A stretch of DNA of 64,000 nt from Segetibacter sp. 3557_3 (GTDB taxonomy: Bacteria > Bacteroidota > Bacteroidia > Chitinophagales > Chitinophagaceae), in assembly GCF_004354985.1 (NCBI RefSeq), contig NZ_SMSK01000002.1:405243-469242 (forward strand). Reading direction: 5' to 3'. The notes below the pieces were generated by a model. That model ran no database searches, had not been told where the DNA came from, and saw only the letters and a list, made by a program, of their open reading frames with translations. Both the position numbers and the translations under genes were made by a program. Shown in pieces: positions 44,246-59,598 of this stretch (the stretch's first letter is position 1; every line of letters starts with the position of its first letter).

Positions 44246-44247
44246 AA

Positions 44248-44775: not shown

Positions 44776-44951
44776 AGAGAGGAAAATTGTTATTAGTTGA
44801 TGTACCAGACGAGCACTCCAAGTGGCTTATCCGGGCTTATTTGTTTGCCTTATCTGGCCCTTGCTCAATGGCATATATCTGAAACAGATCAATCCTTTTG
44901 TGGCCTTAGGTCAGTCGGCAGAGAATTCCTGCACCGGCTAGTACAATGCGG

Positions 44952-46091
44952 TTAGCCAAAAAATCGTCTTCGGGGAACCTGCTCCTCCACTTTGATAAAA
45001 GTTTCTACGGCTTTCCTGCGCTTGCCGATAAACTCCAATTCGGTAAGCGTATTAAAAAGTGTTGTGATAACTTTTAAGAAGGTTGAAATTTTTTCAATTG
45101 CTTCTGTGATATTGTGGTTGTCGTACCATATTGATACGACTTCGTTGATCAGACCCTCTAAATTACCGGGATTAAGGTGGTTCCATTCGCTGAAATAGTT
45201 CATCAGTTCTTCTTTGCCGCAACCTATCCTGGTATCGATGGTGCCTTTTATGATCCTGGCAAAGCCGGTTACCGTAGAAAGCATTGCTGCCGGCGAATCA
45301 TGCAAGGCATTCCAGTGAAGGTCGTTAAGTGTTTTTGCGGTAAACGGTAACAACTTATCGCATAAATCCTTGACCATCTTTGCCACTTCGTTATCCTGGT
45401 TTTTGCCATAGATATTTTGCAGGATAACCAGGCAGCTGTTTTCCAAACCTGCATAGAATTGATCGAGATCTGAATGTAATGCGGTCAGGTCCGGGTGAGC
45501 AGCATTTGAAAAACATGGTGGTATGTATTCCTGAACCGCTATGCTGTTTACATCCGCGCTTATCCTGCCAATAGGCAAGGCGAATGGATGATTTGCAAAT
45601 TGCCGGTACTCGTTTGAAGAGAGCATCTGCACCGAGTACGCGGGTGCTACATACGGTAACCTCGGTGGGAAATCTGCAGGATCGGGTTCGCCAAAAGGAA
45701 CTCTTTCAAATGGATTGGTGATGAGGAAAATCCAGAAATTTGTTGGTGTAACTGCAGGTGGTACCTGGAATGACCACGTGGATAAACTTTCCTGCTGCAA
45801 ATGCTTGTTGGATGATCGAATGGAGATTCGTGCCCCTCCCCGGGTTATTGCATCAAGCGACAGGACAGTTACGCGAACCTCCCTGTGACCATCAGCAATA
45901 ATCTTAACGTTAAAGCTTTCGTTTGCGCCCCCTGCTGATGGAAGCAAGCCATACCGGATTGCGGAAAGTTGCAGAGCAGCAACGTCGTGAAACTGGCACT
46001 GTACCGCATTATCCTGGCGGGTGAAATGATCTTTAGAGATCTTCATTCCGTCTACCCAATTAACCGGGAAATGTCTGTGGTGTTGTAGCAT
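44952..46091 (-). CDS. tssK: Type VI baseplate protein TssK
   Basis: TssK connects the phage-like baseplate to the envelope complex in the cytoplasm. The 379-residue protein begins with the family hallmark NWVDGMKISKDHF, followed by the shell domain, a helical middle (LTALHSDLDQFYAGL) and a C-terminal region (FIGKRRKAVETFIKVEEQV). It is shorter than proteobacterial TssK (about 440), as usual in subtype iii. It starts 10 bases after tssN ends. Confidence 0.85.
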   Translation of the reverse strand: MLQHHRHFPVNWVDGMKISKDHFTRQDNAVQCQFHDVAALQLSAIRYGLLPSAGGANESFNVKIIADGHREVRVTVLSLDAITRGGARISIRSSNKHLQQESLSTWSFQVPPAVTPTNFWIFLITNPFERVPFGEPDPADFPPRLPYVAPAYSVQMLSSNEYRQFANHPFALPIGRISADVNSIAVQEYIPPCFSNAAHPDLTALHSDLDQFYAGLENSCLVILQNIYGKNQDNEVAKMVKDLCDKLLPFTAKTLNDLHWNALHDSPAAMLSTVTGFARIIKGTIDTRIGCGKEELMNYFSEWNHLNPGNLEGLINEVVSIWYDNHNITEAIEKISTFLKVITTLFNTLTELEFIGKRRKAVETFIKVEEQVPRRRFFG

Positions 46092-46101
46092 ATGGTCGGC
46101 A

Positions 46102-46953
46102 TTAAATTCTTTCGCAAATGATTATTGCATTCTCGCGGATACCATTTTCAGCCAGCGTTAGAGCAGGGTCAAGGACTTGATAGCCGTTCAGCCATTTCCG
46201 CTTCAGGCGGAACCACCAACTATATGGTTGATGCCCCGCGTCTGCGTACGCGATTGGCAATTGGTGGTGTAGTTCGTTATAGTCATTTATAAAGTAATAA
46301 TAAAGGTCGCCAAGAGGCATGTTTGCAGGCCCCTTCGCACGGAAATGGGTGGTGTTACTGCCCCCAATATCCCGGCTTAATTCAAAACCCAGTACTACCA
46401 GTGCATCTGTGGAATGTGCGGGTGGTAATTGTTGCTGTAGGTTTACAGGATAGCTCCAGGTGGAATAGAAAGGTAGCGGAATGCGGTATGCTGCTTCAAA
46501 GGTTTGTAAGAAAAGCACTGGAACAAAAAACATTAAGGTGCTCATCAATAAAGGATAAAATAGAAAACTTTTGTCAACCAGGAAGTACTGGATTGTAGAA
46601 AAAACGGCTACTGTAAAAAGCAAGACTGAAAGAACAAAAAGGAGCTCAGCAACAAATTTCTTGAAACCTGGTTGTAACCTGCCCGCATAAAATCTGCGTA
46701 CCAGGTAAACATGAACAATGCCAAATAAAAGAAAAACCAGGCAAAGGATCCAGAAAGTAATAAAAAGATGTGTGCTGATATAAGTAGACAAATATGCAAT
46801 TGCAGATACTACTGCAGACGAAACAGATCCGTATAAAACAGGTTTCTTGCCTGTTACAAAAAAATCGCTGATAAATTGTTTTATGCAAATAATTATTAAA
46901 GCGCTTATTGTAACGAGGCTACCAATATATACCAGAAATAATTTGATTGCCAT
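46102..46953 (-). CDS. tssN: Type VI membrane protein TssN
   Basis: A 283-residue protein with about six membrane helices in the first 165 residues and a cytoplasmic C-terminal domain (QPYSWWFRLKRKWLNGYQVLD, ending TLAENGIRENAIIICERI). The ending resembles a ubiquitin-like or beta-grasp strand-turn pattern. TssN is specific to subtype iii systems and is part of the inner-membrane complex. It sits between tssC and tssK on the minus strand, 146 bases after tssC. Confidence 0.82.
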   Translation of the reverse strand: MAIKLFLVYIGSLVTISALIIICIKQFISDFFVTGKKPVLYGSVSSAVVSAIAYLSTYISTHLFITFWILCLVFLLFGIVHVYLVRRFYAGRLQPGFKKFVAELLFVLSVLLFTVAVFSTIQYFLVDKSFLFYPLLMSTLMFFVPVLFLQTFEAAYRIPLPFYSTWSYPVNLQQQLPPAHSTDALVVLGFELSRDIGGSNTTHFRAKGPANMPLGDLYYYFINDYNELHHQLPIAYADAGHQPYSWWFRLKRKWLNGYQVLDPALTLAENGIRENAIIICERI

Positions 46954-47100
46954 CTGACAATTCTTAGGTCAACGGGAATTGAAGTCCTGAGTTAATTAAC
47001 AACAATAGGTTGTTATTACCGGCACAACATGGCCAGTACAGCTAACAAAAGTGTACACCGTCAAAATGATTACTGCTAACCGGATGTTTCTAGTTAAGAA

Positions 47101-48474
47101 TTACTTTTGTTTGTACGCAGCTTTCCATTCTTCGCCATCATCCCCTTTATAGCCATCTAGAGAAACAATAAAACTTTTCGCCGGAAAAAAAGGTGTGATA
47201 TGCATGTCCAGATAAATGTGATCTTTTTGCGTGTCATCTTTTTCAAATCGAACAATTTGAAACTTCTCAATTAATTTATCAGGACCTTGAATGCCATCCA
47301 GAAACTTTACAATTTGTGATCGCAGGTTAACTTCCATTTTTGTATTCCAAAGTTCAAATGCACGACGATTTAAGAAGTCAGAAACCACTTTTGCAATAAA
47401 ATCGAAGACCCGAACAACCGAATAGGTTTGCATGCCCAGGTTGTCCCCGGTAAATAAGGTTTTCGCACTGAATGGCATAACCTTGCCCCACTCACTTACA
47501 AACGGTATTAGTCCAACGTTTTCGAGTTCTGATATTTCCGCTTTCTTTTGATCGAATCTAACGGTATCGGCTTCATCGATTGTACCATATGTTTTGCCCG
47601 CTACAGGTTGCGATAGTTTTGTAGCATATAGCTTGCCCGCAAGCGCCGCAGATCCCGGAACATAGATATCATCTTCTTCACCAAGTTGTTCATTTTTGCC
47701 CCGTGCGATGATGTAGTTGCACGTCATCATTACATTTGCCTTGTGTGGCTCGGCACCGGTGTGGTTAGCATCGGTAAACATATCAAGCACATCTTCGGGC
47801 GTTTCGATATTTGCAAAGTCAGTAACCAGCATTACCTTGTTCTGGTGCGCAATCTTTGCCCATTTATTTAATACCATCTCCGACTTAAGATATCCGGGAA
47901 TTACCAGTAGTGAATAATTTTGTCTTAGATCAAGCCGGTCATACTTCTGCTTAAGTTCTTGTTCAATGAAGTTGATAAACCGGGGTTCATCCATGTCGGT
48001 TAGCTGGTTCAGAGATGCATTTATTAGTACTACATTCGTGACCCTCGATGTCTCTGTATTCGTGTAAAACAGCTGCACCGATCGGTATGCGGCTTCCAGT
48101 TCTCTTGTCCTTTCCAGGATGGTCTTAAGGTTGGCCTTAATAAGACGGTTGCCCGAGTCGGTTTTTGTAATACATTCGTTGACCATTTCTGCTACGCCCG
48201 TGTTTTCTTCCAACAAGCTAAGCCACAATTCCATTCGTTTTTTCAGGTCCTCGCGTTGATCTCCTTTTAAGTTGTCTGTTAAAAATATGTTTCTTCTTGC
48301 TTTGCGAACCGGATTGAGATTATCTACACCTTCAATGATAGACTCTAAAAAGTCGAACCCACCTGCTTTGACCAGTGTATTCAACGATGTGTCGAGTACG
48401 AGCTCCGGTTTAGATTCTACAGGTGTGTCCACCCGGTAATCAAGTGCAGTTACACTTTTGGCTTCCTCGGTCAT
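47101..48474 (-). CDS. tssC: Type VI sheath large subunit TssC
   Basis: TssC forms the contractile sheath with TssB. The 457-residue protein corresponds to the Bacteroidota TssC form (DUF5458). It has an N-terminal helix (TSLNTLVKAGGFDFLESII), a sheath-like core with FINFIEQELKQKYDRLDLR, SLLVIPGYLKSEMVLNKWA and LVTDFANI, and a C-terminal part ending KDHIYLDMHITPFFPAKSF, the last strand-helix typical of sheath subunits. It lies 44 bases after tssB and is co-transcribed with it. Confidence 0.88.
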   Translation of the reverse strand: MTEEAKSVTALDYRVDTPVESKPELVLDTSLNTLVKAGGFDFLESIIEGVDNLNPVRKARRNIFLTDNLKGDQREDLKKRMELWLSLLEENTGVAEMVNECITKTDSGNRLIKANLKTILERTRELEAAYRSVQLFYTNTETSRVTNVVLINASLNQLTDMDEPRFINFIEQELKQKYDRLDLRQNYSLLVIPGYLKSEMVLNKWAKIAHQNKVMLVTDFANIETPEDVLDMFTDANHTGAEPHKANVMMTCNYIIARGKNEQLGEEDDIYVPGSAALAGKLYATKLSQPVAGKTYGTIDEADTVRFDQKKAEISELENVGLIPFVSEWGKVMPFSAKTLFTGDNLGMQTYSVVRVFDFIAKVVSDFLNRRAFELWNTKMEVNLRSQIVKFLDGIQGPDKLIEKFQIVRFEKDDTQKDHIYLDMHITPFFPAKSFIVSLDGYKGDDGEEWKAAYKQK

Positions 48475-48518
48475 ATATCTATATTTAGGTTGTTGAATAT
48501 TGGTGAGCAGGTATTTAT

Positions 48519-48965
48519 TTATTCCAATTCAGCAATAAGCGCTCTTAGCGAGTCGATCAATGCTTTTTTAGTTGCAGGATTTTCGATTACATTTTTTAGG
48601 GACTTGTTTGTGCCGAGCTGTTTTCGCATTTTTAAATACGCCTCGTTTTGAAGATTTAATTCACGTAAATGGTTGCTCTTTGATATTAGGTGTTTCACGT
48701 CAAAATCGCCTAAACTGTGAAACGTGTATTGCTCATTAACAGTTGAGCCGTCTTCTGTTATTAATTCTACCTCGCATCCCGGTTTAAAATAATTAAAAAC
48801 AGCTTCCACACTATGCAACCCTTCAACGACTACAGGTTTGAGGGGCTCTTCGTCTGTGAGCTTTTGAACAAATAATGTTTTATTTGGCGTTATTTCGACG
48901 AAACCTTCACCTACAGGATCAGGCGCAAGAATAGTTGTGGCGATACCAGGTTTTGTTTGTGGCAT
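48519..48965 (-). CDS. tssB: Type VI sheath small subunit TssB
   Basis: A 148-residue protein from ATG 48965 (MPQTKPGIATTILA); an ATG two codons upstream is also possible. It has the TssB pattern of a sheath subunit: beta strands at the N-terminus (VVVEGLHSVEAVFNYFKPG), the conserved FHSLGDFDVKHLISKS, then a C-terminal helix pair (LNLQNEAYLKMRKQLG, KKALIDSLRALIAEL). First gene of the minus-strand cluster tssB-tssC-tssN-tssK-tssO-tssP. Confidence 0.85.
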   Translation of the reverse strand: MPQTKPGIATTILAPDPVGEGFVEITPNKTLFVQKLTDEEPLKPVVVEGLHSVEAVFNYFKPGCEVELITEDGSTVNEQYTFHSLGDFDVKHLISKSNHLRELNLQNEAYLKMRKQLGTNKSLKNVIENPATKKALIDSLRALIAELE

Positions 48966-49454
48966 ACACAATATTTAATAATTAAAAATGGAGGACTTTT
49001 ATTGCCGTCAGGGTTAAATAAACTTAGAAATTATCATTTGTATTTCCTAGTGTTTTAACCTGCTAATTAATTTTATTTAGTTTTTGGCTTGCAAACCTTT
49101 CTATCAATATAATAATTAAAACAAGTTTGTAAAATTATTTACCCCTTTTTTTTATTCCCATTTTTCAACTGGAAGCTTCTGATGTAATAACCAATTGGTC
49201 AACAAAGCGTAAGGGTGAGAAAAGAACGCGAGCGGGGTGGTAGCGGCGGCACAATAAAAAGAAATTATGAGGGCGGATAAAGTATCAGGCCGGTAATCAG
49301 CAGTAAAGAACTGCCGTTTTTGCGCTATTTTGGGCAAAAAAAAACTTCAATTTATTTCATTTGCAGAACAATCGGGGCATGATACTGCAGTGTGCGATGC
49401 ACAATTGCAAAGGCCTGAATGTCGACCATAATTTAGTTGGTGCGGTTGACTCGT
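48966..49454. other. AT-rich leader region of the type VI cluster
   Basis: About 490 bases upstream of tssB. The part next to tssB (48975-49150) is strongly AT-rich and likely carries the cluster promoter, although I found no clean TAnnTTTG box. A 61-residue minus-strand frame at 49152-49337 (MPKIAQKRQFFTADYRP, then ISFYCAAATTPLAFFSH) is probably not a gene. No terminator was found here for the ATP-grasp gene that ends at 49455 on the same strand. Confidence 0.45.
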
Positions 49455-50651
49455 TTACTGCTCGAAAAAAGCAAGGCTTCCACCGACCCACTCTTTGTCT
49501 TTATTGTAACGTACGCCGATCATCTTGCCCTTACTAAGCCTTGCAAGGTTGGTGGTTGCTATGGGACGAGGATCGCCTTTTTTCCAGAAGTAAAATATCC
49601 TGATTTCTGCTTTCGCCGGCACATCGGGGGTGGGTATCACTTCTGCATAACGTACCTTCTTTTGCAGAATCCAGTTTTCGGGATCTTTTACGTTTTTAAT
49701 ATCGTCCGGTGTAACGTCGATGACAACACCCTGACCTGCAAAAGAAAAAAGTGGTTTTAGTACAAAATTTTCCAGGTCGGAGGGAACATCGGCTACCTCG
49801 TTGAGGAACTTTGTTTCGGGTACATAGGGATGGTTAATAAAAGGAAGGGTGTATTTGCTTATGCGGTAAAACCAGTTCGGATGTGGTGCCCACTCCACGT
49901 CAAGCTCCTCGAGCAGGAGTTTGCCGAAGTCCTGCACCTCCTGTGTTTGTTGCTGTAAGTCGTCGAATATAACCCGGTTATAGATGCGTTTGATTGGAGT
50001 TTTCTCACCGTCTTTCATATAAAACAGCTTTTTCCCTTCTTTGATCAGGTCTGTAAGGCTAACCGGCTCTATGCCCAGGTATTTTTGGGTACAATAAAAG
50101 TCGATCCTGGTTTTTTGCTGATGAGGGAAAATTTCCAGCAGGATCACATTTTCCGGGGCGTGATCACCGAGAATGATCTCGCTAAGTAGTTGCAGGTAAG
50201 TTTCTTTTTTATAGCCGTTCAGGTATGCAGAATACCCCTCAGGAACCGGGAAGTAACGTTCTGTGACTTCAATGTGATGGACCTGGTAAGCAAAAAGTGT
50301 AGGAAATCCCTGCATCTCGATTAGCTGTGGTTCAAGTTCGCCCCTTTCGTTTTCGCAAACGCCAAAGTCGAAGGCTATGAAGGCGCTGTATTCGTTTTCA
50401 CCAGGTACGAGTACAGAACCAGGTATTGCACGTTCAGTAAGTTTTTTGAAATCGGGTGCAACTATAATGTCGACAATGCTTTCGCAAGCAGAAATCATTT
50501 TTTGCGTAAAAGCGCGGTCACAAAAGATTGGCGTTTCCGCAAGTCTAAAATCAATTTTTCCCGGGAAAAGGTTGTCCAGCTCGGCAAGGTAGGCCTCGTA
50601 TTTAGCTTTCGTAAAACTGCTGTTGAATGCCTTTCTTATCGCTGGAACCAT
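49455..50651 (-). CDS. ATP-grasp-like amidoligase (uncharacterised)
   Basis: A 398-residue cytoplasmic protein. The C-terminal half has ATP-grasp features: the phosphate-binding strand-loop FVLKPLFSFAGQGVVID at about residues 290-306, the hinge strand PENWILQKKVRYAEV, and the metal-binding end region AEIRIFYFWKKGDP. The N-terminal half (TPIFCDRAFTQKMISACESI) carries QLIEMQGFPTLFAYQV. It looks like the uncharacterised ATP-grasp enzymes found next to GCS2-type ligases in Bacteroidota, which probably form amide bonds between a carboxylate and an amine. The exact substrates are unknown. First recognisable member of the 49.4-59.6 kb amidoligase island. Confidence 0.65.
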   Translation of the reverse strand: MVPAIRKAFNSSFTKAKYEAYLAELDNLFPGKIDFRLAETPIFCDRAFTQKMISACESIVDIIVAPDFKKLTERAIPGSVLVPGENEYSAFIAFDFGVCENERGELEPQLIEMQGFPTLFAYQVHHIEVTERYFPVPEGYSAYLNGYKKETYLQLLSEIILGDHAPENVILLEIFPHQQKTRIDFYCTQKYLGIEPVSLTDLIKEGKKLFYMKDGEKTPIKRIYNRVIFDDLQQQTQEVQDFGKLLLEELDVEWAPHPNWFYRISKYTLPFINHPYVPETKFLNEVADVPSDLENFVLKPLFSFAGQGVVIDVTPDDIKNVKDPENWILQKKVRYAEVIPTPDVPAKAEIRIFYFWKKGDPRPIATTNLARLSKGKMIGVRYNKDKEWVGGSLAFFEQ

Positions 50652-50988
50652 AAGTGTTAGTTTAGTGCTTTTTACAAAAAAACATCGGCAATGCCAACCA
50701 TATTCTTACAGGTTTATACTGCGATGTAGTAACCACAATATTAATCAAGTATAATTAAAGGCAATAAACTATAGCCTTCTTCGCTAAACTTCTTTTTGGT
50801 TGGGTATACAGCAAACACTTTTACCCCGTTGCACCCCGGCCTTGTTGGTGAGGAGCGATGTTGCCCTTCCGTGTGGTGCTGGTTATCATAATGAGTGGAG
50901 TTTATGTAATGCAATCTTCAATTAGTTGTTGCTTTGATTGTTGCTGTGCATAGGTTTTTGTTTTCCTATGCTGCATAAAGTTATCCGG
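50652..50988. other. Gene-free stretch upstream of the ATP-grasp gene
   Basis: About 340 bases with a hairpin GCATAGG / CCTATGC (50948-50954 and 50965-50971) near the right end. No convincing frame or promoter was recognised. Confidence 0.4.
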
Positions 50989-51040
50989 TACAAGTGTGCG
51001 ACGCAACGGCAGCCGCATAGCCTTACTATAGCCGGGTCCA
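50989..51040 (+). repeat. Dispersed intergenic repeat, copy 2
   Basis: TACAAGTGTGCGACGCAACG at 50989-51008 and GCCGGGTCC from 51031. The same two anchors, 19/20 identical at the left end and one base different in spacing, occur at 19618-19668. The middle differs, as expected for a short intergenic element that diverges between copies. Confidence 0.55.
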
Positions 51041-51125
51041 TAAAAAAGGCAGGCAAGCACTTTTAACCCGCAGACGCTTGGCGGAAACGGTATGATTTTT
51101 TTATTATATACATAAACTTACTAAC

Positions 51126-51305
51126 ATGGCAAAATCATCAAATGGCAGAAGCCAGGACCGCGCAAAAGTTGCCGGCGGGCAGGAACATGAAGTGAATTAT
51201 GCGAAAGACAAATTAAACACCAGTAAAGATGCGGTAAAAGGTGCGATTAAAAAGGTAGGTAACAGCCGTAAGAAGGTAGAAGCGGAAGTAAAAAAGGGCA
51301 AATAG
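51126..51305 (+). CDS. DUF3606 small lysine-rich protein
   Basis: A 59-residue basic protein from ATG 51126 (MAKSSNGRSQDRAKVAGG). The pattern QDRAKVAGGQEHEVNYAKDK and AVKGAIKKVGNSRKKVEAEV matches the DUF3606 family, in which a similar pattern (DR.R....EVRYW..) precedes a helical AV..VG segment. Family function is unknown. It is on the plus strand, facing the gene at 51323 tail to tail with a 17-base gap, inside the amidoligase island. Its lysine-rich C-terminus (EVKKGK) could in principle be an acceptor for a ligase, but that is speculation. Confidence 0.7.
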   Translation: MAKSSNGRSQDRAKVAGGQEHEVNYAKDKLNTSKDAVKGAIKKVGNSRKKVEAEVKKGK

Positions 51306-51322
51306 CCGCTTTGCGCCGACTG

Positions 51323-51769
51323 CTAGCGTGCCCGGTATTTGCCTGCCCCGCCCGTGTTCTGGATTAATTGTCCGGTCGCAGGTGGTTGAGCCGGTTTAGA
51401 AACTGGGTTTTCTCCTTCTTGTCGCAGCAGGAGTTCCCCGGTAAGGTCGTAATAGAGGTTTTGTAACTGGTGGATATTTAAGATGTGCTTCAACCTGATC
51501 TCCTGGTTAAGTACCAGCAGCAGTGCATTGGTCCTGGTCCGGTGAAAGTCGAAACAGAAGTTATTGCAAATTTTTTGCAGCATCCTGTTCTGACTTTCGC
51601 CTGCAGGACTAAAATTTAAACGGACAAGTCGCTGTGGTGTTATGGAAAGCGGGCGGAGTTCCGGTAAAATAGCCTGGATGTTTGCCAGGTCCCGCTCTGT
51701 AATCTGCAGTACCGCGTTGTTCCGGGCGAAATAGTTAGAAGCCCTGACTTCGATAATGTCTGTTTCCAT
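51323..51769 (-). CDS. Hypothetical protein in the amidoligase island
   Basis: A 148-residue soluble protein (METDIIEVRASNYFARNN). The core reads like mixed alpha/beta (RDLANIQAILPELRPL, NRMLQKICNNFCFDFHRT, LKHILNIHQLQNLYYDL), with a Pro/Gly-rich C-terminus. No family was recognised. It lies 61 bases downstream of the amidotransferase gene on the same strand and may share its transcript. Confidence 0.6.
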   Translation of the reverse strand: METDIIEVRASNYFARNNAVLQITERDLANIQAILPELRPLSITPQRLVRLNFSPAGESQNRMLQKICNNFCFDFHRTRTNALLLVLNQEIRLKHILNIHQLQNLYYDLTGELLLRQEGENPVSKPAQPPATGQLIQNTGGAGKYRAR

Positions 51770-51830
51770 ACCACTAAATTACTAAAAGATTTAGCAATTT
51801 ACCAAGAGCATAACAACAAAGATTTCCTGG

Positions 51831-52682
51831 TTAAGCTACTGCGGGAACAGTTTGATTTTCAAAGGCAAGAACGGCCTGGTTGAGAAAATTTGGCAGAATG
51901 TGGCTGTAGGTAGACAAGATTTTGCCCGGATCATTCAATTGTTCAACCATGCTGGCCCACTTGGCTTCTCCATGGTTTTCGATCACCATTTTCTTTTTAT
52001 CGTCACGCTGAAGATACATGCTCATACCTTTTGCATCTGCCTCAGGGTGAAATTGTGTGCCGACAAAATAATCATTAAAGCGAACAGCCATTACAGCGCG
52101 CTCATATGGAACGTGCATCCTTTCTTTTTCGATTGCCAGCAGGGTAGCCCCCATTTCGTTGATGCGTTGCAGATCCGGTGAGATGAGCTGGTAGTCGCGG
52201 CTATCCACCGCATAAAAGGGATCTTTCAAACCCCCGAATATGTCTTCTTCGTGATTGTCGAGCCGGTGAATGGGGAATACGCCAAATGAGGTAGACTTTC
52301 TCTTGCAAACTGTTCCGATCTTATAATGCCTGCTGACGAGCTGGAAACTGTGACAAATAAAGAAAACGTGTTTTTTAGGAAAGTTATCGCTGGTATTCCA
52401 ATCCTCAATTTGATGCAGCCAGTCGAAAAAGCTGTTCTCCCATGCTGTGCCCTCGCTTTCAAGCGGAGAGCCAGGCCCACCTGATGATATGTAAACGTCA
52501 AACTCAGTTCCGGGAAGTTCTTCTTTTAACCGCACCTCGAATTCCTGCATATTCAGGTTATAATTATGCTGTGCGGCCCATTGTGTAACAATATCCTTGA
52601 TACAACGCATACCCTGGTTGTCAAAACCTGCGTTCATATCGAGAACAGCTACGTTTATACTTCTTGATTCATTCCAACTCAT
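51831..52682 (-). CDS. Class I glutamine amidotransferase-like protein
   Basis: Starting at ATG 52682 (MSWNESRSINVAVLDMNAG), 283 residues. It has a class I GATase (GMP-synthase type) fold: the nucleophile elbow FFICHSFQ with Cys110 replaces the usual GICLGHQ, and the catalytic His-Glu lies in GTQFHPEADAKG. It also has an ISSGGPGSP oxyanion strand. Glutaminase activity supplying ammonia is plausible, or it may act as a gamma-glutamyl hydrolase as some stand-alone members do. It belongs to the island with two ATP-grasp enzymes and a GCS2 ligase. Confidence 0.82.
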   Translation of the reverse strand: MSWNESRSINVAVLDMNAGFDNQGMRCIKDIVTQWAAQHNYNLNMQEFEVRLKEELPGTEFDVYISSGGPGSPLESEGTAWENSFFDWLHQIEDWNTSDNFPKKHVFFICHSFQLVSRHYKIGTVCKRKSTSFGVFPIHRLDNHEEDIFGGLKDPFYAVDSRDYQLISPDLQRINEMGATLLAIEKERMHVPYERAVMAVRFNDYFVGTQFHPEADAKGMSMYLQRDDKKKMVIENHGEAKWASMVEQLNDPGKILSTYSHILPNFLNQAVLAFENQTVPAVA

Positions 52683-52688
52683 GTGCAA

Positions 52689-53207
52689 ACATACAATTTT
52701 TTAAAAAGTGGGGATTTCAGCCCGGTTGTTATTGGCCCGTTGTACAGTCATACACCTATACGTGCCGGAATTCCGGGCATGTCTCCCCGTTATAGATGCG
52801 ACAACAAACGGTAATAGTTTGATGCGAATTGTATGCCACGGAATAGTAGGGCAGATGGGGTGTTAAAAGCATTGCTATGGAGCAACCCTACTTTAAGTTA
52901 AAGTTTGTGCGTTAATTTCAGAGGCGGCGGAAGGATGCTGTCGCCGCGAGTTGGATTGCTGGTAAAACGTGCCCTGGCCAGGGCAAGGACTTCAACCGTA
53001 CATGATGGGTAGAAGATCCGGTACATTCAGATCCAGGTGGGGCTTGTTAAAGCAGGGCGCTCCGAACAAGCTCCGGGAACCCGGCTGAAACTACATTAAC
53101 CCACATCTGTTTAGGCGTCGTGTGCCAACCGGAAGGGAACTGCACGCTTGTACTTCCGGGGTGCTAAGATGCTAAACGCAATTGGGCCGCACCTAAACTG
53201 TGAAGAT
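52689..53207. other. Gene-free stretch inside the amidoligase island
   Basis: About 520 bases separating the amidotransferase gene from the lipoprotein gene upstream of it. It contains a perfect 14-base palindrome GCCCTGGCCAGGGC at 52971-52984. A minus-strand frame near 53050-53165 (FPSGWHTTPKQMWVNVVSAG) is open for about 38 codons and may be chance. No tRNA or terminator was recognised. Confidence 0.4.
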
Positions 53208-54197
53208 TTACAACTGGTCTAAAAAGGTATTAATTTCTGATTTGGTTTTTTTCTCCGGTTCAAGACGAAGCAATGCGTCGGCAGAAACGTTTAACTGTTT
53301 GGCGCCGTAATAAAGCTGGTCGCCGATGATCCCTAGAGCAACCAGGCTGACATTACTGCCGATAGGAAGTGCCGGTGCAAAAAATGTTCGGCTCAGGTAA
53401 TCTGCATCGAGCCGGACAACAATGCGCTGGTCCCGGAGTATGGCATATACACTGGTGTTGGTGTTGGTAAAATTAGGAGGGAGGATGGCATTGACCCTGG
53501 TGCGTGGTTTGGAGGTATCCACAAAATAGTCGCAATTAACCCAGGCAAACCTTGCGGAGATCATTTCGTAACCACGGAATACACCACCCATTGAGTCCTG
53601 ACGCTGAAAGGTTGCAACCCTTGAGCTATCCGCTGCGGGTACCCAGGTAAAGCCGCTGTTTGTTCCGGGTGGGGTACTGCCGGCATTTTGCTCGCCGTAA
53701 AATACGCGCATTAGTGGGTTGGTGTTTGGCTCACGGAACCTGATCATTATACTCTTGCCAGCTGCTAACCCAAGTTCCTGGCCTTCCTTAGAAGCCTTTA
53801 TGTGAACGGCACCACCTGACTCCAGCAACCGGTGGAAGCTGGTGGTCGGCCGGGCAAAACGTACCATGTCGCCCTTTGTTTTAAGGTAAATTACCTCCAG
53901 GTTTACGGCGCCTGTAGCGAGCGTTCCATTTGGGTATGCAAAAGCCGAAGGGGGAAATATCATCTCAAGGTCGCGGGGAAAGCTAATCATCCCCCCGGCA
54001 ACAGCGTTTACGCTACCATTATTTGCTGCCTGGTCCAGGCTTTTCTCAAGCTTGTGTACCGCGGCAGCTGCTCCGGGTTCCGCCACCCAAACAGTATCGT
54101 TTAATGGATTGCTTCCATATGGATAGAAAGAGTCAGAAGTTTCTTTCGCGCAACTGTAAGCCATGGTAATTAAAACCAGGCAGAGTAATCTGTTCAT
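53208..54197 (-). CDS. Hypothetical lipoprotein of the sigma-factor cassette
   Basis: A 329-residue protein from ATG 54197 (MNRLLCLVLITMAYSCAKE, lipobox MAYSC). The mature part has a beta-sandwich-like core: GGMISFPRDLEMIFPPSAF and GAVNLEVIYLKTKGDMVRFA recur in Bacteroidota lipoproteins and resemble the start of ZU5/GAIN-like beta domains. It lies 22 bases after the anti-sigma/barrel gene on the same strand, so it is the third gene of the cassette and may bind a surface ligand sensed by it. Confidence 0.7.
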   Translation of the reverse strand: MNRLLCLVLITMAYSCAKETSDSFYPYGSNPLNDTVWVAEPGAAAAVHKLEKSLDQAANNGSVNAVAGGMISFPRDLEMIFPPSAFAYPNGTLATGAVNLEVIYLKTKGDMVRFARPTTSFHRLLESGGAVHIKASKEGQELGLAAGKSIMIRFREPNTNPLMRVFYGEQNAGSTPPGTNSGFTWVPAADSSRVATFQRQDSMGGVFRGYEMISARFAWVNCDYFVDTSKPRTRVNAILPPNFTNTNTSVYAILRDQRIVVRLDADYLSRTFFAPALPIGSNVSLVALGIIGDQLYYGAKQLNVSADALLRLEPEKKTKSEINTFLDQL

Positions 54198-54219
54198 CGT
54201 CATTTTAATTTAAATGTCA

Positions 54220-55659
54220 TTACCGGAAGTATCGTGAAGAGCCTGGCAGCCGGTAGCGTATGCCAAGGCTTAGACCTGCGACCTGGAATTTCTGGGTAAA
54301 AGGATTTTGGGCAGTGGTCATCTGCGAGAAGTTGTACCTGAACCAGGGTTCTGCAAAAATTTGCAGGTTGTTGGAAATGCCTTTCATTATGCTTACACCT
54401 GCGTACAGGCCAACTCCGAGATTTCTTTTAAAGACCTGCCCACCCGGGGCTTTGTTTATTGGCACTGCGTTATAGCCGGTGTCGAGCATTTGTCCCGTTT
54501 GCCACGATGATAAGTTCAGCAGCACACCCGCATTAAGTGCTACCCTCAGGCGGTCGCTTCCCCATTCGTAGCCTACGATCAATGGCAGGTCGATACTACG
54601 GTATTTGTTCATGGACGAAGTAACCAGGTAGCCGATTTGTTCAACCGTACTCGTGTCGCGAACCAATAGGGTATCTCCAGGCGATCGTATGATGCTTCGG
54701 ATCGTGATCACCGTCGTTTGCCGGCGCTCGTTCTCTCGTCGGAAGAGGAACTTTTCGTTGATCTGCGCATATTGCAGACCTGTTTTTAGAACCATGTTCT
54801 TTCCAAATGGCTTGACCAAACGAAAACCGGCTGTGAAAGCATAACTAAAGTTTTCACTGCTGTCTTTTCGGGCCAGGTAATCCGCGGTCATGTTAGGTGC
54901 AACAACAGATTTCCTGGCATAGTCGGGAGAACCATACACCTCCAGGAACATGGGGTGGTTGCGGTGCCTGTTGCTGGTTGGGCAGTCGACAGAACAAGCA
55001 ATGGCAAATTGTTTTAGCGACCCGGGGAGAGTTCGGTTTGCCTGCTTAAAATCCCTGCGGTTATCAGTAATGACGGCCTCACCCCTAAGCAAAGCAATCT
55101 TTTCTGAGCGCAGTTGATCAACCGCTTTCTCCTGATTTCCGGCATTGAGCATACGGTTTTTACCCCCGTTTAGCCGTATGCCACTGGTGTATGCTGGTTT
55201 GTTGGTTTTTTGTAGTGACGTGAGCTGGACAACTTTTGAATGATTGTCTACTTTATTGTTCAATCCGCCTGGTGTCTTTTTGCTGGCTGCTAATGGCGCT
55301 TCGACAGCCTGGTTTAACACTGGTTTTAATGTTGCTGAGCCGTTAGCATTTGCAGTTGTTGTTTCGGCTGTCGAGGGATTGCGTTTGCCGTTCGGCCGTT
55401 GATTTGTTTGAGGTACTGGTATATGGTGTTTGCTATGATTGGCCGGAATGACTTGCCTGTTTTTTGTTGATTTCGTGAAGATGACCAGACCGGTAGTTAT
55501 GGCGATCAGCAATAAGGCTCCGCCAGCTTTCCACCACCAGCCAAATCGCGGTGCTGCACTTTTTTGCGCATGTATCCGGTTCCACATATCCCCCGGAACT
55601 GCCGACGAGTGGTCGTGTAACTTATCGTGGACCCATTTATCAAAGTTGTTGTCGGTCAT
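54220..55659 (-). CDS. Fusion of anti-sigma-like domain and outer-membrane-type beta-barrel
   Basis: A 479-residue protein. Residues 1-40 form a cytoplasmic region (NNFDKWVHDKLHDHSSAVP and GDMWNRIHAQK) typical of Bacteroidota proteins encoded right after an ECF sigma factor. One membrane helix follows at about 43-62 (AGGALLLIAITTGLVIF), then a long Asn/Thr/Pro-rich linker to about residue 220, then a porin-family beta-barrel-like domain (LKTGLQYAQINEKFLFRREN, and ending VAGLSLGIRYRLPGSSRYF). It overlaps the sigma gene stop by one base. It may control that sigma factor from the membrane. How a protein with an inner-membrane helix would carry a barrel-like domain is unresolved. Confidence 0.72.
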   Translation of the reverse strand: MTDNNFDKWVHDKLHDHSSAVPGDMWNRIHAQKSAAPRFGWWWKAGGALLLIAITTGLVIFTKSTKNRQVIPANHSKHHIPVPQTNQRPNGKRNPSTAETTTANANGSATLKPVLNQAVEAPLAASKKTPGGLNNKVDNHSKVVQLTSLQKTNKPAYTSGIRLNGGKNRMLNAGNQEKAVDQLRSEKIALLRGEAVITDNRRDFKQANRTLPGSLKQFAIACSVDCPTSNRHRNHPMFLEVYGSPDYARKSVVAPNMTADYLARKDSSENFSYAFTAGFRLVKPFGKNMVLKTGLQYAQINEKFLFRRENERRQTTVITIRSIIRSPGDTLLVRDTSTVEQIGYLVTSSMNKYRSIDLPLIVGYEWGSDRLRVALNAGVLLNLSSWQTGQMLDTGYNAVPINKAPGGQVFKRNLGVGLYAGVSIMKGISNNLQIFAEPWFRYNFSQMTTAQNPFTQKFQVAGLSLGIRYRLPGSSRYFR

Positions 55660-56195
55660 TAAACGGCGATTTTTTGTAGTTCAAAAACCTGGTTTTGCAA
55701 CATCTTGCGAGCTTTAACCAACTGGCTCCTGCTGGTTCCCGGTTGTATATTGAGCATCGTGGCAATTTCTTCATGAGTAAATCCTTCGATTACACTCAGG
55801 TTGAAAACAAGCCTGTAGCCTTCGGGCAATTGGTTAATAAGTTTCATCAGGTCTTCTTCGCCCAGGTTTGAATAAGCAAATGGCTCAAGGTGTTCGGCCA
55901 CATGTGTGCGGTCGTTTATTTCCTGGAAGTTGATCTTTTTCTTCTTGACGCTTTTTAGCGCATTGTTAACTACGATCCGCCGGATCCATCCTTCAAATGA
56001 CCCTTCAAATTTAAACTGGTGTATATAGCGGAACACTTTAATAAATGACTCCTGCAACAGGTCCTCGGCTTCCATGCTGTCCTTAGCATAGCGCAGGCAA
56101 ACCGTCATCATTTTGCCCGCATAGTGCTCAAAAAGCTTCCGCTGGCAGTTAACGTCGTGCTTAAGACATCCCCGGATGATTTCGAATTCGTTCAA
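55659..56195 (-). CDS. ECF-type RNA polymerase sigma factor
   Basis: A 178-residue extracytoplasmic-function sigma-70 factor. Region 2 is at about residues 20-85 (YAGKMMTVCLRYAKDSMEAE, then DLLQESFIKVFRYIHQFKF) and region 4 at about 115-165 (LPEGYRLVFNLSVIEGFTHE, then EEIATMLNIQPGTSRSQLVK). Regions 1 and 3 are absent, as expected. It shares one base with the following anti-sigma-like gene, so they are coupled. Its target promoters are unknown; nothing in the sequence tells whether the amidoligase genes on either side are among them. Confidence 0.93.
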   Translation of the reverse strand: MNEFEIIRGCLKHDVNCQRKLFEHYAGKMMTVCLRYAKDSMEAEDLLQESFIKVFRYIHQFKFEGSFEGWIRRIVVNNALKSVKKKKINFQEINDRTHVAEHLEPFAYSNLGEEDLMKLINQLPEGYRLVFNLSVIEGFTHEEIATMLNIQPGTSRSQLVKARKMLQNQVFELQKIAV

Positions 56196-56299
56196 AGTTT
56201 TACATACGTTTTCGATGGTTCACACACAGATAGGTGCAGCCGATGAAATGCTGCCTGATAAAATAAGAATTTTCAGCAGAAAGCTTGCGGTATGTACAT

Positions 56300-56333
56300 A
56301 AAAAAGCCCCGAAACACATTTGGCGGCCGGGGC
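56300..56333 (-). terminator. Rho-independent terminator of the carboxylate-amine ligase gene
   Basis: Stem GCCCCG / CGGGGC (56306-56311, 56328-56333) with a 16-base loop, and a T-run on the minus strand (56300-56305). It lies 33 bases after the stop of the gene ending at 56366, so it separates the ligase pair from the sigma-factor gene. Confidence 0.75.
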
Positions 56334-56365
56334 GTTGGATATTCTCGAGTTCGAAATCGTTGTAC

Positions 56366-57475
56366 TTACACTCTCAGAAAGCTATCATGGATGTAGTCCA
56401 TAACGCTTACAAGACTTTTTGTTTCGTTATAAACCGCCAGTTGCCTGTCGGCACCTGTACCATTTTCGATCATTCTGTTTACGTAATTTACAGCAGAGCG
56501 GCTACCAAGTTGATCCACCACGTCGTCAACAAAGTCGAGCAATTCATAAATGAGGACCCGGGTATTTACTTCGGACTCTTTTCCAAAGTCGATCATGGTA
56601 CCATCGATACCATACCTGCCGGCGCGCCATTTATTTTCCATGATCAGCCTGCGGTGGTACATCATGAAGTTCAGGTTCTGCATCCGCAGCTTGTACAACT
56701 TGGCACAGATCGCCTGAAACAGGGCTGCAATGGCTATGGTTTCATCGATTGTCATCGGCACGTCGCAAATCCTGAACTCCACTGTGTTGAAGAAAGGATG
56801 GACCCTGAGGTCCCACCATATCTTCTTGGCATTGTCGATGCAGTTTGTTTTAACCAGCAGCTTTATATAATTGTCGTAGTCTTCAATGCTTTCAAAGTGA
56901 TCGGGAATGCCGGTACGCGGAAACTTGTCGAAGACTTTAGTCCGGAAGGATTTATAACCGGTCAAACGCCCTTCCCAGAAAGGAGAGTTGGTGCTGAGTG
57001 CATAAACGTGTGGGAGAAAGTACCTGGCCGAATTTGCGATATGAATGGCCATCTCGCGTGTTTCCATGCCCACGTGTACGTGTAAGCCAAAGATCAGGTT
57101 GCTGCGCGCGGCTTCCTGCAATTCGTTAACGATATCTGCATAACGTGCATGGTCGGTAATCAGCTGACTTTCCCAATGGCTAAATGGATGGGTTCCCGCG
57201 GCGCCAACCCACAAACCCAGGTCGCCGGCAATCTTGGAAATGGTGTGGCGCAGTACAGAAACGTCTTTATACGCTTCTTCAATGTTTTCACAGATATCCG
57301 TACCCACCTCAACAACGGCCTGGTGCATCTCTGCTTTTACTTTATCCTTGATCACCTTCTGACCCTCGGTAACAATCTTCTGCTCATGACTTTTTAGTTC
57401 ACGGGTGGTCGGGTCTATGACCATATATTCTTCTTCAACACCTAATGTAAAATGCTTGAAACTGATATTGCCCAT
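56366..57475 (-). CDS. GCS2-type carboxylate-amine ligase (YbdK-like)
   Basis: A glutamate-cysteine-ligase-2 family enzyme that joins a carboxylate to an amine with ATP. The 369-residue protein has the family start ISFKHFTLGVEEEYMVIDP, the middle signature ENIEEAYKDVSVLRHTISK, GAAGTHPFSHW, FGLHVHVGME, and the end RAGRYGIDGTMIDFGKESE. YbdK in E. coli has weak gamma-glutamylcysteine synthetase activity, but Bacteroidota members in such islands probably act on other substrates. It is the second gene of a pair, 104 bases after the ATP-grasp gene upstream, and has its own terminator. Confidence 0.92.
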   Translation of the reverse strand: MGNISFKHFTLGVEEEYMVIDPTTRELKSHEQKIVTEGQKVIKDKVKAEMHQAVVEVGTDICENIEEAYKDVSVLRHTISKIAGDLGLWVGAAGTHPFSHWESQLITDHARYADIVNELQEAARSNLIFGLHVHVGMETREMAIHIANSARYFLPHVYALSTNSPFWEGRLTGYKSFRTKVFDKFPRTGIPDHFESIEDYDNYIKLLVKTNCIDNAKKIWWDLRVHPFFNTVEFRICDVPMTIDETIAIAALFQAICAKLYKLRMQNLNFMMYHRRLIMENKWRAGRYGIDGTMIDFGKESEVNTRVLIYELLDFVDDVVDQLGSRSAVNYVNRMIENGTGADRQLAVYNETKSLVSVMDYIHDSFLRV

Positions 57476-57579
57476 ATTATAAGTAGTTTGTTGAGCCCTT
57501 AAGGCTTTGCGCGAAGCACCGCTGGGTTGATGGTAAAGTAAATACTGCTGTACTCTTGATCGACTGGCTTTACGTTGAG

Positions 57580-58533
57580 CTAGTACAACGGCTGACCACT
57601 GGTACTGCGTTTTACATATTCGCCCCAGGTAAGGTTGTCTGCGCCGGATTTGTTTTCCTGTGCTTTTTCAATCGCATAATTTGCTGAGGTTTCAACAACC
57701 CAGTCGAAGTTTTCCTGGCCGACACTTGTTCTTTCCGCATCGGGTGCCGGGTTGCAAAAGTCAATTGCATATGGTACACCATCACGCCATGCCAGTTCAA
57801 CCGTATTAAAGTCGTATCCAAGATAGGTGCAAATTCTTACGACAATATCTTCCATAAGCTTAAGCTTGGACTCATCAGGCTGGAAGTCGGCAGCGTAGCG
57901 AAGGTGGTGGGGGTTCCGTGGCTCATAACTCATGATCCGCACGTGTTTCGTTCCTATGCAATAACACCGGTAGTACTCAGTAAACACAATTTCTTCCTGC
58001 AGCATCATTACCAACTGGCCGGTCTCGGCATGCTTATCAAAAAAGTCATCTATACTTTCCAGCTTATAAACATTCTTCCATCCTCCGCCTGCAAATGGTT
58101 TCATGTAGGCAGGAAATCCCACGTACTTAAAAATGCCTTCCCAGTCAAGGGGGTATGCAAGGTTGCTGAATGAACCGTCACTTGTATCATCTGGTAAATC
58201 CCTTGAAGGTAGAATTACGGTTTTTGGAACCGGAACGTCAATTTTTGTTGCCAGGCAATTGTTGAAAAACTTTTCATCGGCACTCCACCAGAAAGGGTTA
58301 TTGATTACAGTTGTTCCGGTAAGCGCCGCATTTTTGAGATAAGCACGGTAGAATGGCACGTCCTGGCTGATGCGGTCGAATATAACAGCATATTCGGTGG
58401 GTTCGCCTTGCATCACCTTGTCGATTTTAACAGCTTCGGCAGTAATGCCATCTACTTGTTTACTGTTCACCCTGTCAATAAAAGCTTCCGGGAAACTTCT
58501 TTCTTTGCCAAACAGCATTCCGATTTTTTTCAT
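57580..58533 (-). CDS. RimK-type ATP-grasp ligase
   Basis: A 317-residue ATP-grasp enzyme. Pre-ATP-grasp region at about 1-115 (MKKIGMLFGKERSFPEAFID, then AVIFDRISQDVPFYRAYL), ATP-binding lysine in YMKPFAGGGWKNVYKLE, then LQEEIVFTEYYRCYCIG and the metal-binding AIDFCNPAPDAERT with Asp and Asn ligands. Similar to RimK and glutathione-synthetase-like ligases, so it should activate a carboxylate as acyl phosphate and couple it to an amine. It precedes the GCS2 gene, and an esterase gene is divergent across a 237-base gap. Confidence 0.88.
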   Translation of the reverse strand: MKKIGMLFGKERSFPEAFIDRVNSKQVDGITAEAVKIDKVMQGEPTEYAVIFDRISQDVPFYRAYLKNAALTGTTVINNPFWWSADEKFFNNCLATKIDVPVPKTVILPSRDLPDDTSDGSFSNLAYPLDWEGIFKYVGFPAYMKPFAGGGWKNVYKLESIDDFFDKHAETGQLVMMLQEEIVFTEYYRCYCIGTKHVRIMSYEPRNPHHLRYAADFQPDESKLKLMEDIVVRICTYLGYDFNTVELAWRDGVPYAIDFCNPAPDAERTSVGQENFDWVVETSANYAIEKAQENKSGADNLTWGEYVKRSTSGQPLY

Positions 58534-58770
58534 AAATGGTTGGTTTTGGTTTGTAATGTCTTGCCTCGATGCGACTTAAAAACACCCATAATAATCATTC
58601 CAAGTCAGGCACTTGAAAGCTGAACAGTTTAAAGGAGAAGGATATAGGAAGTTTATTCTGGAAGGTCTGAGTAACCCTCCCAATATACCAAAGTATTTTT
58701 CACTGAACTCACATAGCATTAAAAATGTTTGTTGCCATACCCTTTTGGCTAATTCGCTATTTTTGAACAT

Positions 58771-59598
58771 ATGGATGAGCAGTATTTACAAGTTGAAGAA
58801 CGCAGCGGATATTCAGTGCTCGTAGAACAAAATGAGATTGCTTCCGACTTTCTGGAACGACAGGTTATCATCGACACTTACCTGCCAACCAATGTGGCAC
58901 ATACCGGTAACTTAAATCTTTTACTGCTCAACGATGGCCAGGACCTACTAAAAATCGACTTCGCGGAGATCCTGCACAAGTTGATGATCAACGGGGCTAT
59001 TGAACCATTGATTTGCGTAGGGGTACATTGCGGTCCTGACCGCAAAATGGAATATGGTACGGAATGCCAGGCCGACTATAAGGGACGAGGTGCAAGAGCA
59101 GGTTTATACACGAAGTTTATCTTCGATGAACTGTTGCCTTTTATCCGGAAAACGTATCATATACCATCTTTCAAAGAAAAGTCCTTCGCGGGATTTTCGC
59201 TTGGTGGACTTAGCGCCATGGATATCGTTTGGAATCATGCAAGCGAGTTTTCGAAGGTGGGTGTTTTTAGTGGCTCCTTATGGTGGCGACGCAAAGCATA
59301 TGATGAAGGCTACGACGATGAACTGGACCGTATCATGCACCTCCAGGTTCGCAAAGGTCAGCTTCATCCGTGGTTACAGTTCTTTTTTCAATGTGGTGCG
59401 CTCGACGAGGAAAATGACCGTAACAACAATGGGGTAATCGATTCGATAGATGATACACTCGATATGATCCTTCAACTCAAACTTAAGGGATACACCGATA
59501 AGCATATCCGTTACCTTGAGTTAAAAGACGGGCGGCACGACGTAGAGAGCTGGGCACGGGCCCTGCCTGACTTTTTAAAATGGGGCTGGGGAAGATAA
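58771..59598 (+). CDS. Alpha/beta-hydrolase esterase with EF-hand-like loop
   Basis: A 275-residue esterase of the enterochelin-esterase/esterase-D type. Nucleophile Ser143 is in GFSLGG; the catalytic Asp probably lies around 210-240, and the His is in GRHDVESW near the C-terminus. Unusually, residues 216-227 (DRNNNGVIDSID) form a textbook EF-hand calcium-binding loop: acidic or amide residues at positions 1, 3, 5, 9 and 12, Gly at 6 and Ile at 8. There is no signal peptide, so it is cytoplasmic. A TATTTTTG box lies at 58758-58765, unusually close to the ATG. It may cleave the product or an activated intermediate of the adjacent ligases. Confidence 0.85.
   Translation: MDEQYLQVEERSGYSVLVEQNEIASDFLERQVIIDTYLPTNVAHTGNLNLLLLNDGQDLLKIDFAEILHKLMINGAIEPLICVGVHCGPDRKMEYGTECQADYKGRGARAGLYTKFIFDELLPFIRKTYHIPSFKEKSFAGFSLGGLSAMDIVWNHASEFSKVGVFSGSLWWRRKAYDEGYDDELDRIMHLQVRKGQLHPWLQFFFQCGALDEENDRNNNGVIDSIDDTLDMILQLKLKGYTDKHIRYLELKDGRHDVESWARALPDFLKWGWGR

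Follow-up and report, generated by a model that had tools for sequence, protein, structure and literature searches.

An island of three predicted ATP-dependent ligases, an esterase and a hydrolase-like protein in Segetibacter, largely kept or lost together among Bacteroidota

Genes of the amidoligase island

We analysed a stretch of 64,000 nucleotides from Segetibacter sp. 3557_3, a member of the Chitinophagaceae (contig NZ_SMSK01000002.1, positions 405,243 to 469,242; the whole stretch is referred to here as the window), in which five genes make up what we term the amidoligase island. Four are on the reverse strand and code for a putative ATP-grasp ligase of glutathione-synthetase or glutathionylspermidine-synthase (GspS) type (GRASP2, 398 aa, 49455..50651), a class-I glutamine-amidotransferase (GATase)-like protein (GAT, 285 aa, 51831..52688), a predicted YbdK-type carboxylate-amine ligase (GCS2, 369 aa, 56366..57475), and a RimK/LysX/Ddl-like ATP-grasp ligase (GRASP1, 317 aa, 57580..58533). 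The fifth, a PF00756-type esterase (EST, 275 aa, 58771..59598), is on the forward strand and divergent from GRASP1; the intergenic region between them (58534..58770) was read directly, and both promoters presumably lie within it. All five reading frames are complete, in agreement with a preliminary description made from the DNA letters alone. Our comparisons show that these genes belong together as a unit and that related genomes have, in most cases, either retained or lost them jointly. Enzyme classes, conserved signatures, co-inheritance, co-location and the exchange of hydrolases are all shown by the analysis.

The three types of ATP-dependent ligase that the preliminary description proposed are borne out, GCS2 by Pfam and NCBIfam and the two ATP-grasp proteins by structure models and their matches in the PDB. 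GCS2 matches the Pfam family of that name (E 1.7e-59), passes the NCBIfam cut-offs of PRK13515 (522.1 against 371 bits) and TIGR02050 (288.9 against 176.4 bits), and has YbdK (1r8g, E 3.8e-66) as its nearest solved structure. We therefore predict a YbdK-type carboxylate-amine ligase, which resembles the E. coli protein in these respects and differs from it in its setting, close beside GRASP1 in almost every genome that has both. YbdK is not known to act together with such partners. A different ligase of GCS2 size, found beside a GATase-like thiol peptidase, has been predicted to take part in synthesis of glutathione or a peptide like it (Iyer and colleagues 2008, PMC2588565). The idea of pairing a carboxylate-amine ligase with a GATase-like peptidase is common to both systems, but theirs is a separate group of GCS2 size, of the Clostridium CJD_1902 type and from proteobacteria and firmicutes, and the available part of that paper does not contain the six-gene cluster of our analysis.

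Both ATP-grasp proteins of the window fall outside the Pfam families, and we modelled them by running AlphaFold2 on alignments of related sequences, with a mean pLDDT of 93.2 for each. GRASP1 matches no Pfam family and finds LysX and RimK in NCBIfam only below the cut-offs (E 0.0005 and 0.0015); among 37 aligned members, weak Pfam matches are to PF02222 (two), R2K_2 (two) and Dala_Dala_lig_C (one). The top PDB matches of its model are ArgX (3vpb), the graspetide ligase PsnB, Ddl and RimK, all with a probability of 1.00, and the model points clearly to an ATP-grasp fold. Residues K145, P146, G149-G151, E246, D258 and N261 are nearly invariant (at least 90% of the 37 sequences); we take K145 and the glycines to belong to the phosphate loop and E246, D258 and N261 to be the acidic and asparagine metal residues, as in the family at large. 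GRASP1 thus has the modelled fold and catalytic residues of LysX/ArgX, RimK and the graspetide ligases, but shares only 10-16% identity with them among the 50 matches listed, and its tightest clusters, unlike those systems, have no internal gene for a carrier or precursor. A divergent GRASP1 stands alone in one genome (G014, L101:9131-10096), with 34% identity, the glycine-rich loop lost in the alignment and the other four genes absent; this copy may have taken on a new role or be on its way to loss.

The GRASP2 protein of the window has neither a Pfam nor an NCBIfam match. Foldseek places its model with yeast and human glutathione synthetase, the GspS-like protein 3n6x and YgiC (E 9e-15 to 1.1e-13, probability 1.00), and 19 of the 20 structure matches at E<0.001 are glutathione synthetases (yeast, human, soybean), nematode relatives, a GspS-like protein, YgiC and E. 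coli GspS; the remaining one, annotated 'Ligase Cp1B', was not placed. The model accordingly argues firmly for a glutathione-synthetase or GspS-type fold (TM-score normalised by query length 0.51-0.63), but at an identity of only 11-16% and an rmsd of 6 to 10 angstrom. Of 32 aligned members, four, with the window protein not among them, match Pfam GSP_synth (best E 5.2e-5), and a GRASP2 profile agrees weakly with YgiC (E 0.0072), aligning the region of the KP..F..G.G loop. D95, E112 and Q114 are invariant in the 32 rows, and K299 is also part of the conserved signature; the first three may correspond to the metal-binding residues D318, E330 and N332 of GspS. GRASP2 also differs from glutathione synthetase, GspS and YgiC in lacking a fused amidase and in having GCS2, GRASP1 and esterases as partners.

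Nothing within the window contradicts the earlier remark that no transporter is visible. Elsewhere, a sodium:solute symporter is fused in-frame to GRASP2 in one genome (L277:6637-9237) and immediately precedes it in a related genome (L288:9987-11369), and may carry a substrate or product of the pathway. Another apparent GRASP2 fusion, in L185, comes from an open reading frame (ORF) that passes through unknown residues into unrelated sequence, and was set aside as an assembly artefact.

Pfam likewise upholds the calls of a GATase-like protein and an esterase. GAT scores 30.5 bits against a GATase cut-off of 22.8, and its residues C112, H214 and E216, which are the same in all of 28 sequences, form a Cys-His-Glu set that we take to be the catalytic triad from what is known of the family. 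Class-I GATases usually have the nucleophile elbow G-x-C-x-G, which is absent from GAT; the window protein has ICHSFQ, and ICH-S-[FY]-Q or ICYSFQ is found in 18 of 19 copies across the phylum. When a GAT profile is compared with solved structures, the best match is the GATase-like 3l7n (E 1e-4), and homoserine acyltransferases are matched too (2vdj, E 3.7e-4). EST scores 74.5 bits against 22 for Pfam Esterase (E 1.5e-20), and the GFSLGG of its translation fits G-x-S-x-G. In none of the five proteins did we recognise a housekeeping enzyme of a known pathway; the preliminary description had named the presence of such an enzyme as a finding that would undo its proposal.

Joint inheritance in the family and the phylum

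The distribution of the genes was determined in 98 genera of the family, each represented by one genome, some assemblies being fragmentary. GRASP1 is present in 70 of these genomes, GRASP2 in 72, GAT in 74, GCS2 in 72 and EST in 67. The EST count depends on a stringent cut for orthologues (E below about 1e-60, or about 43% identity and above), matches at any E value to 0.001 being found in 87 of 98 genomes owing to paralogues. At the stringent cut, 67 of the 70 GRASP1-bearing genomes have a close EST homologue, and none of the 28 that lack GRASP1 does. All five genes occur together in 63 genera and none in 23; among the partial sets, EST alone is missing in two, GCS2 alone in two and GRASP2 alone in two, and one genome has only the distant GRASP1. 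This last match was left out of the counts of location, by which pairs no more than 3 kb apart are GRASP1 and GCS2 in 66 of 67 genomes, GRASP1 and EST in 59 of 67, and GAT and GRASP2 in 45 of 72. A single stretch of 5.0-14.4 kb holds all five genes in 16 of the 63 genomes, the window included.

Across 247 Bacteroidota genomes, GRASP1 was found in 86 and GRASP2 in 73, with both in 70, GRASP1 only in 16 and GRASP2 only in three; one GRASP1 match (G133), one GRASP2 match (G141) and 12 weak GAT matches were dropped before counting, and partial GRASP2 matches in two genomes (G043, G095) were taken as present. GCS2 accompanies both ATP-grasp genes in 65 of the 70. In 28 of these 70 genomes GRASP1 and GRASP2 do not lie within 15 kb of each other on one contig, although contig breaks may explain some of these, and the co-occurrence is therefore more than a shared neighbourhood. 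Fisher values calculated for the co-occurrence ignore kinship and are descriptive only. Where GRASP1, GCS2 or GRASP2 occurs in the searched genomes, there is almost always just one copy.

The preliminary description had made conservation together in relatives a test of its proposal, and the genes are indeed mostly co-inherited in the family and the phylum and clustered in other phyla as well. Median identities from 60 random pairs among 18 loci are 77.1% for GRASP1 and 79.2% for GCS2, compared with 76.8% for RibBA, and in the same comparison of loci a TonB-type receptor has a median of 36.7% (51 pairs). By this measure GRASP1 and GCS2 are conserved like an enzyme of core metabolism.

Compact clusters within and beyond the phylum

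Three family loci (L095, L096, L100) have a complete and contiguous cluster in the order EST2-GRASP1-GCS2-GAT-GRASP2, where EST2 is a second esterase. The same cluster is complete in 10 of 40 loci from the phylum, and in 6 of the 40 it is complete with EST. To look more widely we took the best 80 of at least 586 GRASP1 relatives from a scan of GTDB genomes, in which the first row of the query had been picked for distance, making the sample uneven. These 80 loci come mainly from Acidobacteriota and Ignavibacteria, and also from Kapaibacterium, Chlorobiota, Calditrichaeota, KSB1, Opitutaceae and Bacteroidota (among them Dyadobacter, Algoriphagus and Cryomorpha). EST2-GRASP1-GCS2-hydrolase-GRASP2, in which the hydrolase is either GAT or a Peptidase_M29 protein, is found in 31 of the 80 (24 in the M29 form, seven in the GAT form), and we treat this compact order as the ancestral form.

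One explanation of the island is that five unrelated genes have become adjacent by accident, in line with the splitting of EST-GRASP1-GCS2 from GAT-GRASP2 in most family genomes and with the intervening sigma factor genes in the window. The joint presence and absence of the genes and their single compact cluster in distant lineages show that the island is not due to chance; the counts refute an accidental origin, which we regard as scarcely credible.

EST2 precedes GRASP1 in five family loci (L085, L095, L096, L098, L100). A close EST2 occurs in 6 of 27 family genomes searched, beside GRASP1 every time, and most of the others, the genome of the window included, have only relatives of 28-39% identity elsewhere. 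In a plasmid collection neither GRASP1 nor GRASP2 has a match. The same collection holds 14 EST2 relatives; of four that were viewed, one is beside an ATP-grasp gene, one is not, and two have no annotated feature. The one beside an ATP-grasp gene is from Peptoclostridium and directly follows that gene (L177:4779-6744), so that the pairing of esterase and ATP-grasp genes may reach Bacillota.

Intergenic gaps in four of the tightest clusters (L095, L144, L147, L148) are of 44 nt at most, with gaps in other loci of up to about 155 nt; ORFs were picked by longest frame, which places some starts too far upstream and may make the real gaps slightly larger than stated. Because the gaps are so short, these four clusters contain no gene for a precursor peptide, which agrees with what had been noted for the window, although ORFs of under 50-60 aa outside the clusters were left unexamined. 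The structural likeness of GRASP1 to PsnB and MdnC would suit a cluster for a graspetide or other ribosomal peptide. The lack of room for a precursor, together with the conservation of GRASP1 and GCS2 at the level of RibBA, argues against such a cluster, and we consider it very improbable.

In a variant cluster (L155, L156, L165, L173, L174) a CP_ATPgrasp_2-like ligase lies beside GAT, and in four of the five loci beside GRASP1. This variant is present in several families, where the CP_ATPgrasp_2-like protein beside GRASP1 replaces GCS2 and GRASP2; two of its members were run in Pfam, one of them falling just below the cut-off. Five genomes with GRASP1 and no GRASP2 retain GCS2 elsewhere. Circularly permuted ATP-grasp, alpha-E and Anbu proteins form a peptide-tagging cluster, which the variant resembles in having a CP_ATPgrasp_2-like protein next to GRASP1, but the compact clusters contain no alpha-E or NTN-peptidase gene, this being a statement about the clusters, with no genome-wide search made. 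A fourth ligase, the Ddl/ATP-grasp_4-like GRASP3, is present at or near the cluster in L137, L142, L145, L155, L214 and L218 (that of L145 was run in Pfam).

Exchange of GAT and Peptidase_M29 between GCS2 and GRASP2

The position between GCS2 and GRASP2 in the 80 cross-phylum loci is occupied by GAT in eight and by Peptidase_M29 in 40, and by both in none; among the 41 loci with all three ligases, 27 have M29 and seven have GAT. All 13 aligned members of the M29 group match PF02073 (Peptidase_M29), they also match the aminopeptidase AmpS and, more weakly, NicX, and E196, E268, H294, H314 and D316 are invariant in the 13 rows and are presumably the metal ligands. A metallo-aminopeptidase would be an implausible substitute for an amidotransferase that supplies ammonia, and we therefore read GAT as a protein that probably hydrolyses an amide. 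The suggestion that the GATase might supply amino groups is not supported by this comparison. No ammonia-using synthetase that could be its partner is present in the compact clusters, the part of the genomes that was searched for one. This interchange of GAT and M29 is a direct clue to the chemistry of the pathway.

Within the phylum, 25 of the 70 genomes with both ATP-grasp genes have no GAT. An M29 of the cluster type, defined as E <1e-100, is found in three of the 25, twice at the slot position itself; weaker M29 matches, which bring the total to 71 of 247 genomes, were not counted. An Amidohydro_3-type gene, presumably YtcJ-like, directly precedes GRASP2 in four of 20 loci, all without GAT (L269, L270, L275, L276), and is possibly a third replacement in the slot. 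Four proteins of this type were run against Pfam, two of them from these four loci. Amidohydro_3-type genes also directly precede GAT in five family loci (L063, L064, L066, L073, L123).

A ligase and a GATase-like hydrolase could also serve in the assimilation of an amine or amino acid, GCS2 glutamylating the amine, the other enzymes converting it, and GAT then stripping the glutamate. PuuA and PuuD provide this kind of gamma-glutamyl protection for putrescine, and the pairing of a ligase with an adjacent class-I GATase-like hydrolase fits their logic, as do the symporter gene that in two genomes is joined to GRASP2 or precedes it and the amidohydrolase gene before GRASP2 in four of 20 loci. 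The compact clusters, however, encode nothing beyond ligases, esterases and either GAT or M29, with no dehydrogenase or oxidase, three ligases exceed the needs of protection, and GRASP1 and GCS2 are as conserved as RibBA. We consider such an assimilatory role distinctly unlikely.

A candidate pathway and its alternatives

The reading that we favour, with a probability of roughly 0.4, is that the island specifies an intracellular, non-ribosomal pathway in which three ATP-dependent ligations would lead to a small gamma-glutamyl-type oligopeptide or amide. We infer the substrates, the order of steps and the product as follows. GCS2, as a YbdK-like enzyme, would form the first amide, probably at the side-chain carboxyl group of glutamate or of a comparable diacid, and GRASP2 would extend this intermediate at its free carboxylate, much as its relatives glutathione synthetase and GspS attach glycine and spermidine, respectively. 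The RimK/LysX-like GRASP1 would add a further residue, and GAT, or Peptidase_M29 in other lineages, would cleave an amide bond in trimming or turnover. We assign the PF00756 esterases to the GRASP1 step, where their substrate would be an ester or a thioester form, because EST, at the chosen cut, is never found without GRASP1 in the 98 family genomes.

Several observations weigh against this reading. In five of the 98 family genomes GRASP1 and EST are absent while GRASP2, GAT and GCS2 are present, and for this reason there may be two linked pathways instead of one; family genomes in fact usually have EST-GRASP1-GCS2 and GAT-GRASP2 at separate loci. Five of the 70 phylum genomes that have both ATP-grasp genes lack GCS2, among them all four of one family in the same order, and GRASP1 is alone in 11 of the 80 cross-phylum loci, several loci ending at contig ends. 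EST (53.4%, 47 pairs), GAT (59.8%) and GRASP2 (59.8%) all have median identities below that of RibBA, the values for GAT and GRASP2 coming from other loci than those of RibBA. The hydrolase is not obligatory, because 22 of the 25 genomes without GAT also have no cluster-type M29, and 7 of the 41 cross-phylum loci with all three ligases have neither protein. The sequence of GAT does not fix its chemistry, given its odd elbow and the match of its profile to homoserine acyltransferases, and it could be an acyltransferase. The glycine-rich loop of GRASP2 is SFAGxG where YgiC has SREGAN, and since the glutamate of the YgiC 'REG' is replaced by alanine, GRASP2 is predicted not to be a plain GspS or GSS.

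The relatives of GRASP1 bear on the reading in a further way, in that LysX, ArgX and RimK act on proteins. GRASP1 and GRASP2 might accordingly attach amino acids, or else a peptide, to a target protein or to a carrier protein, as LysX and ArgX do on LysW, with GAT or M29 trimming the attached group or taking it off again. The structural matches of GRASP1, which include ArgX with LysW, RimK and the peptide-modifying graspetide ligases, suit a modification of this kind, as does the placement of hydrolases between the ligases. The GCS2-type superfamily offers a precedent for ligation to protein in PafA and pupylation (PMC2588565). On the other side, no gene for a small acceptor was found at the loci and the tightest clusters leave no space for one, although an acceptor might be encoded elsewhere, and the nearest folds to GRASP2 are those of small-molecule enzymes. 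On balance we judge protein modification to be unlikely.

In outline, GCS2 and a ligase of glutathione-synthetase fold are the glutathione pair, and the cluster might make the main low-molecular-weight thiol as a substitute for glutathione; an esterase of the variant cluster, EST3, has a weak match to S-formylglutathione hydrolase (E 0.0048). BshC, a bacillithiol enzyme, is nonetheless present in 242 of the 247 Bacteroidota genomes, independently of the presence of the cluster and with the genome of the window included, and in 3 of 14 controls, including Bacillus subtilis. For Bacteroidetes, Chlorobi and Acidobacteria, the thiol that has been reported or predicted is bacillithiol (PMC6282198). 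A replacement thiol is weakened by this near-universal presence of BshC; the cluster probably does not make one, and we hold the thiol explanation to be improbable.

Returning to the gamma-glutamyl-type pathway, it is possible, if doubtful, that its product is an unrecognised core metabolite of the cell interior, perhaps cofactor-like, in Bacteroidota, Acidobacteriota, Ignavibacteria and Opitutaceae, made by three ligases with a hydrolase slot that has been filled at least twice by unrelated enzymes. Two ligases conserved to the degree of a riboflavin enzyme, in a set that most genera of the family inherit as a unit and that is clustered in several phyla, point to a basic metabolite or modification that is absent from textbooks. 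No paper on the gene set was found among the matches listed in a search of the open-access full-text literature, although a 2009 review of amidoligases from the Iyer group may list the cluster.

Neighbouring genes in the window

The gene content given in the preliminary description holds for the five genes, but the island also includes genes that lie outside its widely conserved core. A DUF3606 protein (51126-51305, Pfam E 4.5e-14) and a 148-aa ORF (51323-51769) lie between GRASP2 and GAT; their homologues (tblastn at E 1e-3) are confined to the window's own genome among the loci compared, and no relative of either is present at the other 80 loci. We rejected both as acceptor or partner on this account, and with them the earlier speculation that the DUF3606 protein is the acceptor. 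Bacteroidota-type type VI secretion genes (43139-48971, reverse strand; TssC at E 3e-200, TssN, TssO, and a VipA match below its cut-off) follow directly past GRASP2 and were excluded as a part of the system, with family members in none of the other 80 loci. Between GAT and GCS2 are genes for an extracytoplasmic function (ECF) sigma factor, an outer-membrane beta-barrel protein and a 331-aa protein (53208-56195, reverse strand). These too were set aside as pathway components, an ECF gene following GCS2 in only 12 of 58 GCS2 loci, and the group looks like a local neighbour or passenger that is a conserved trio of its own.

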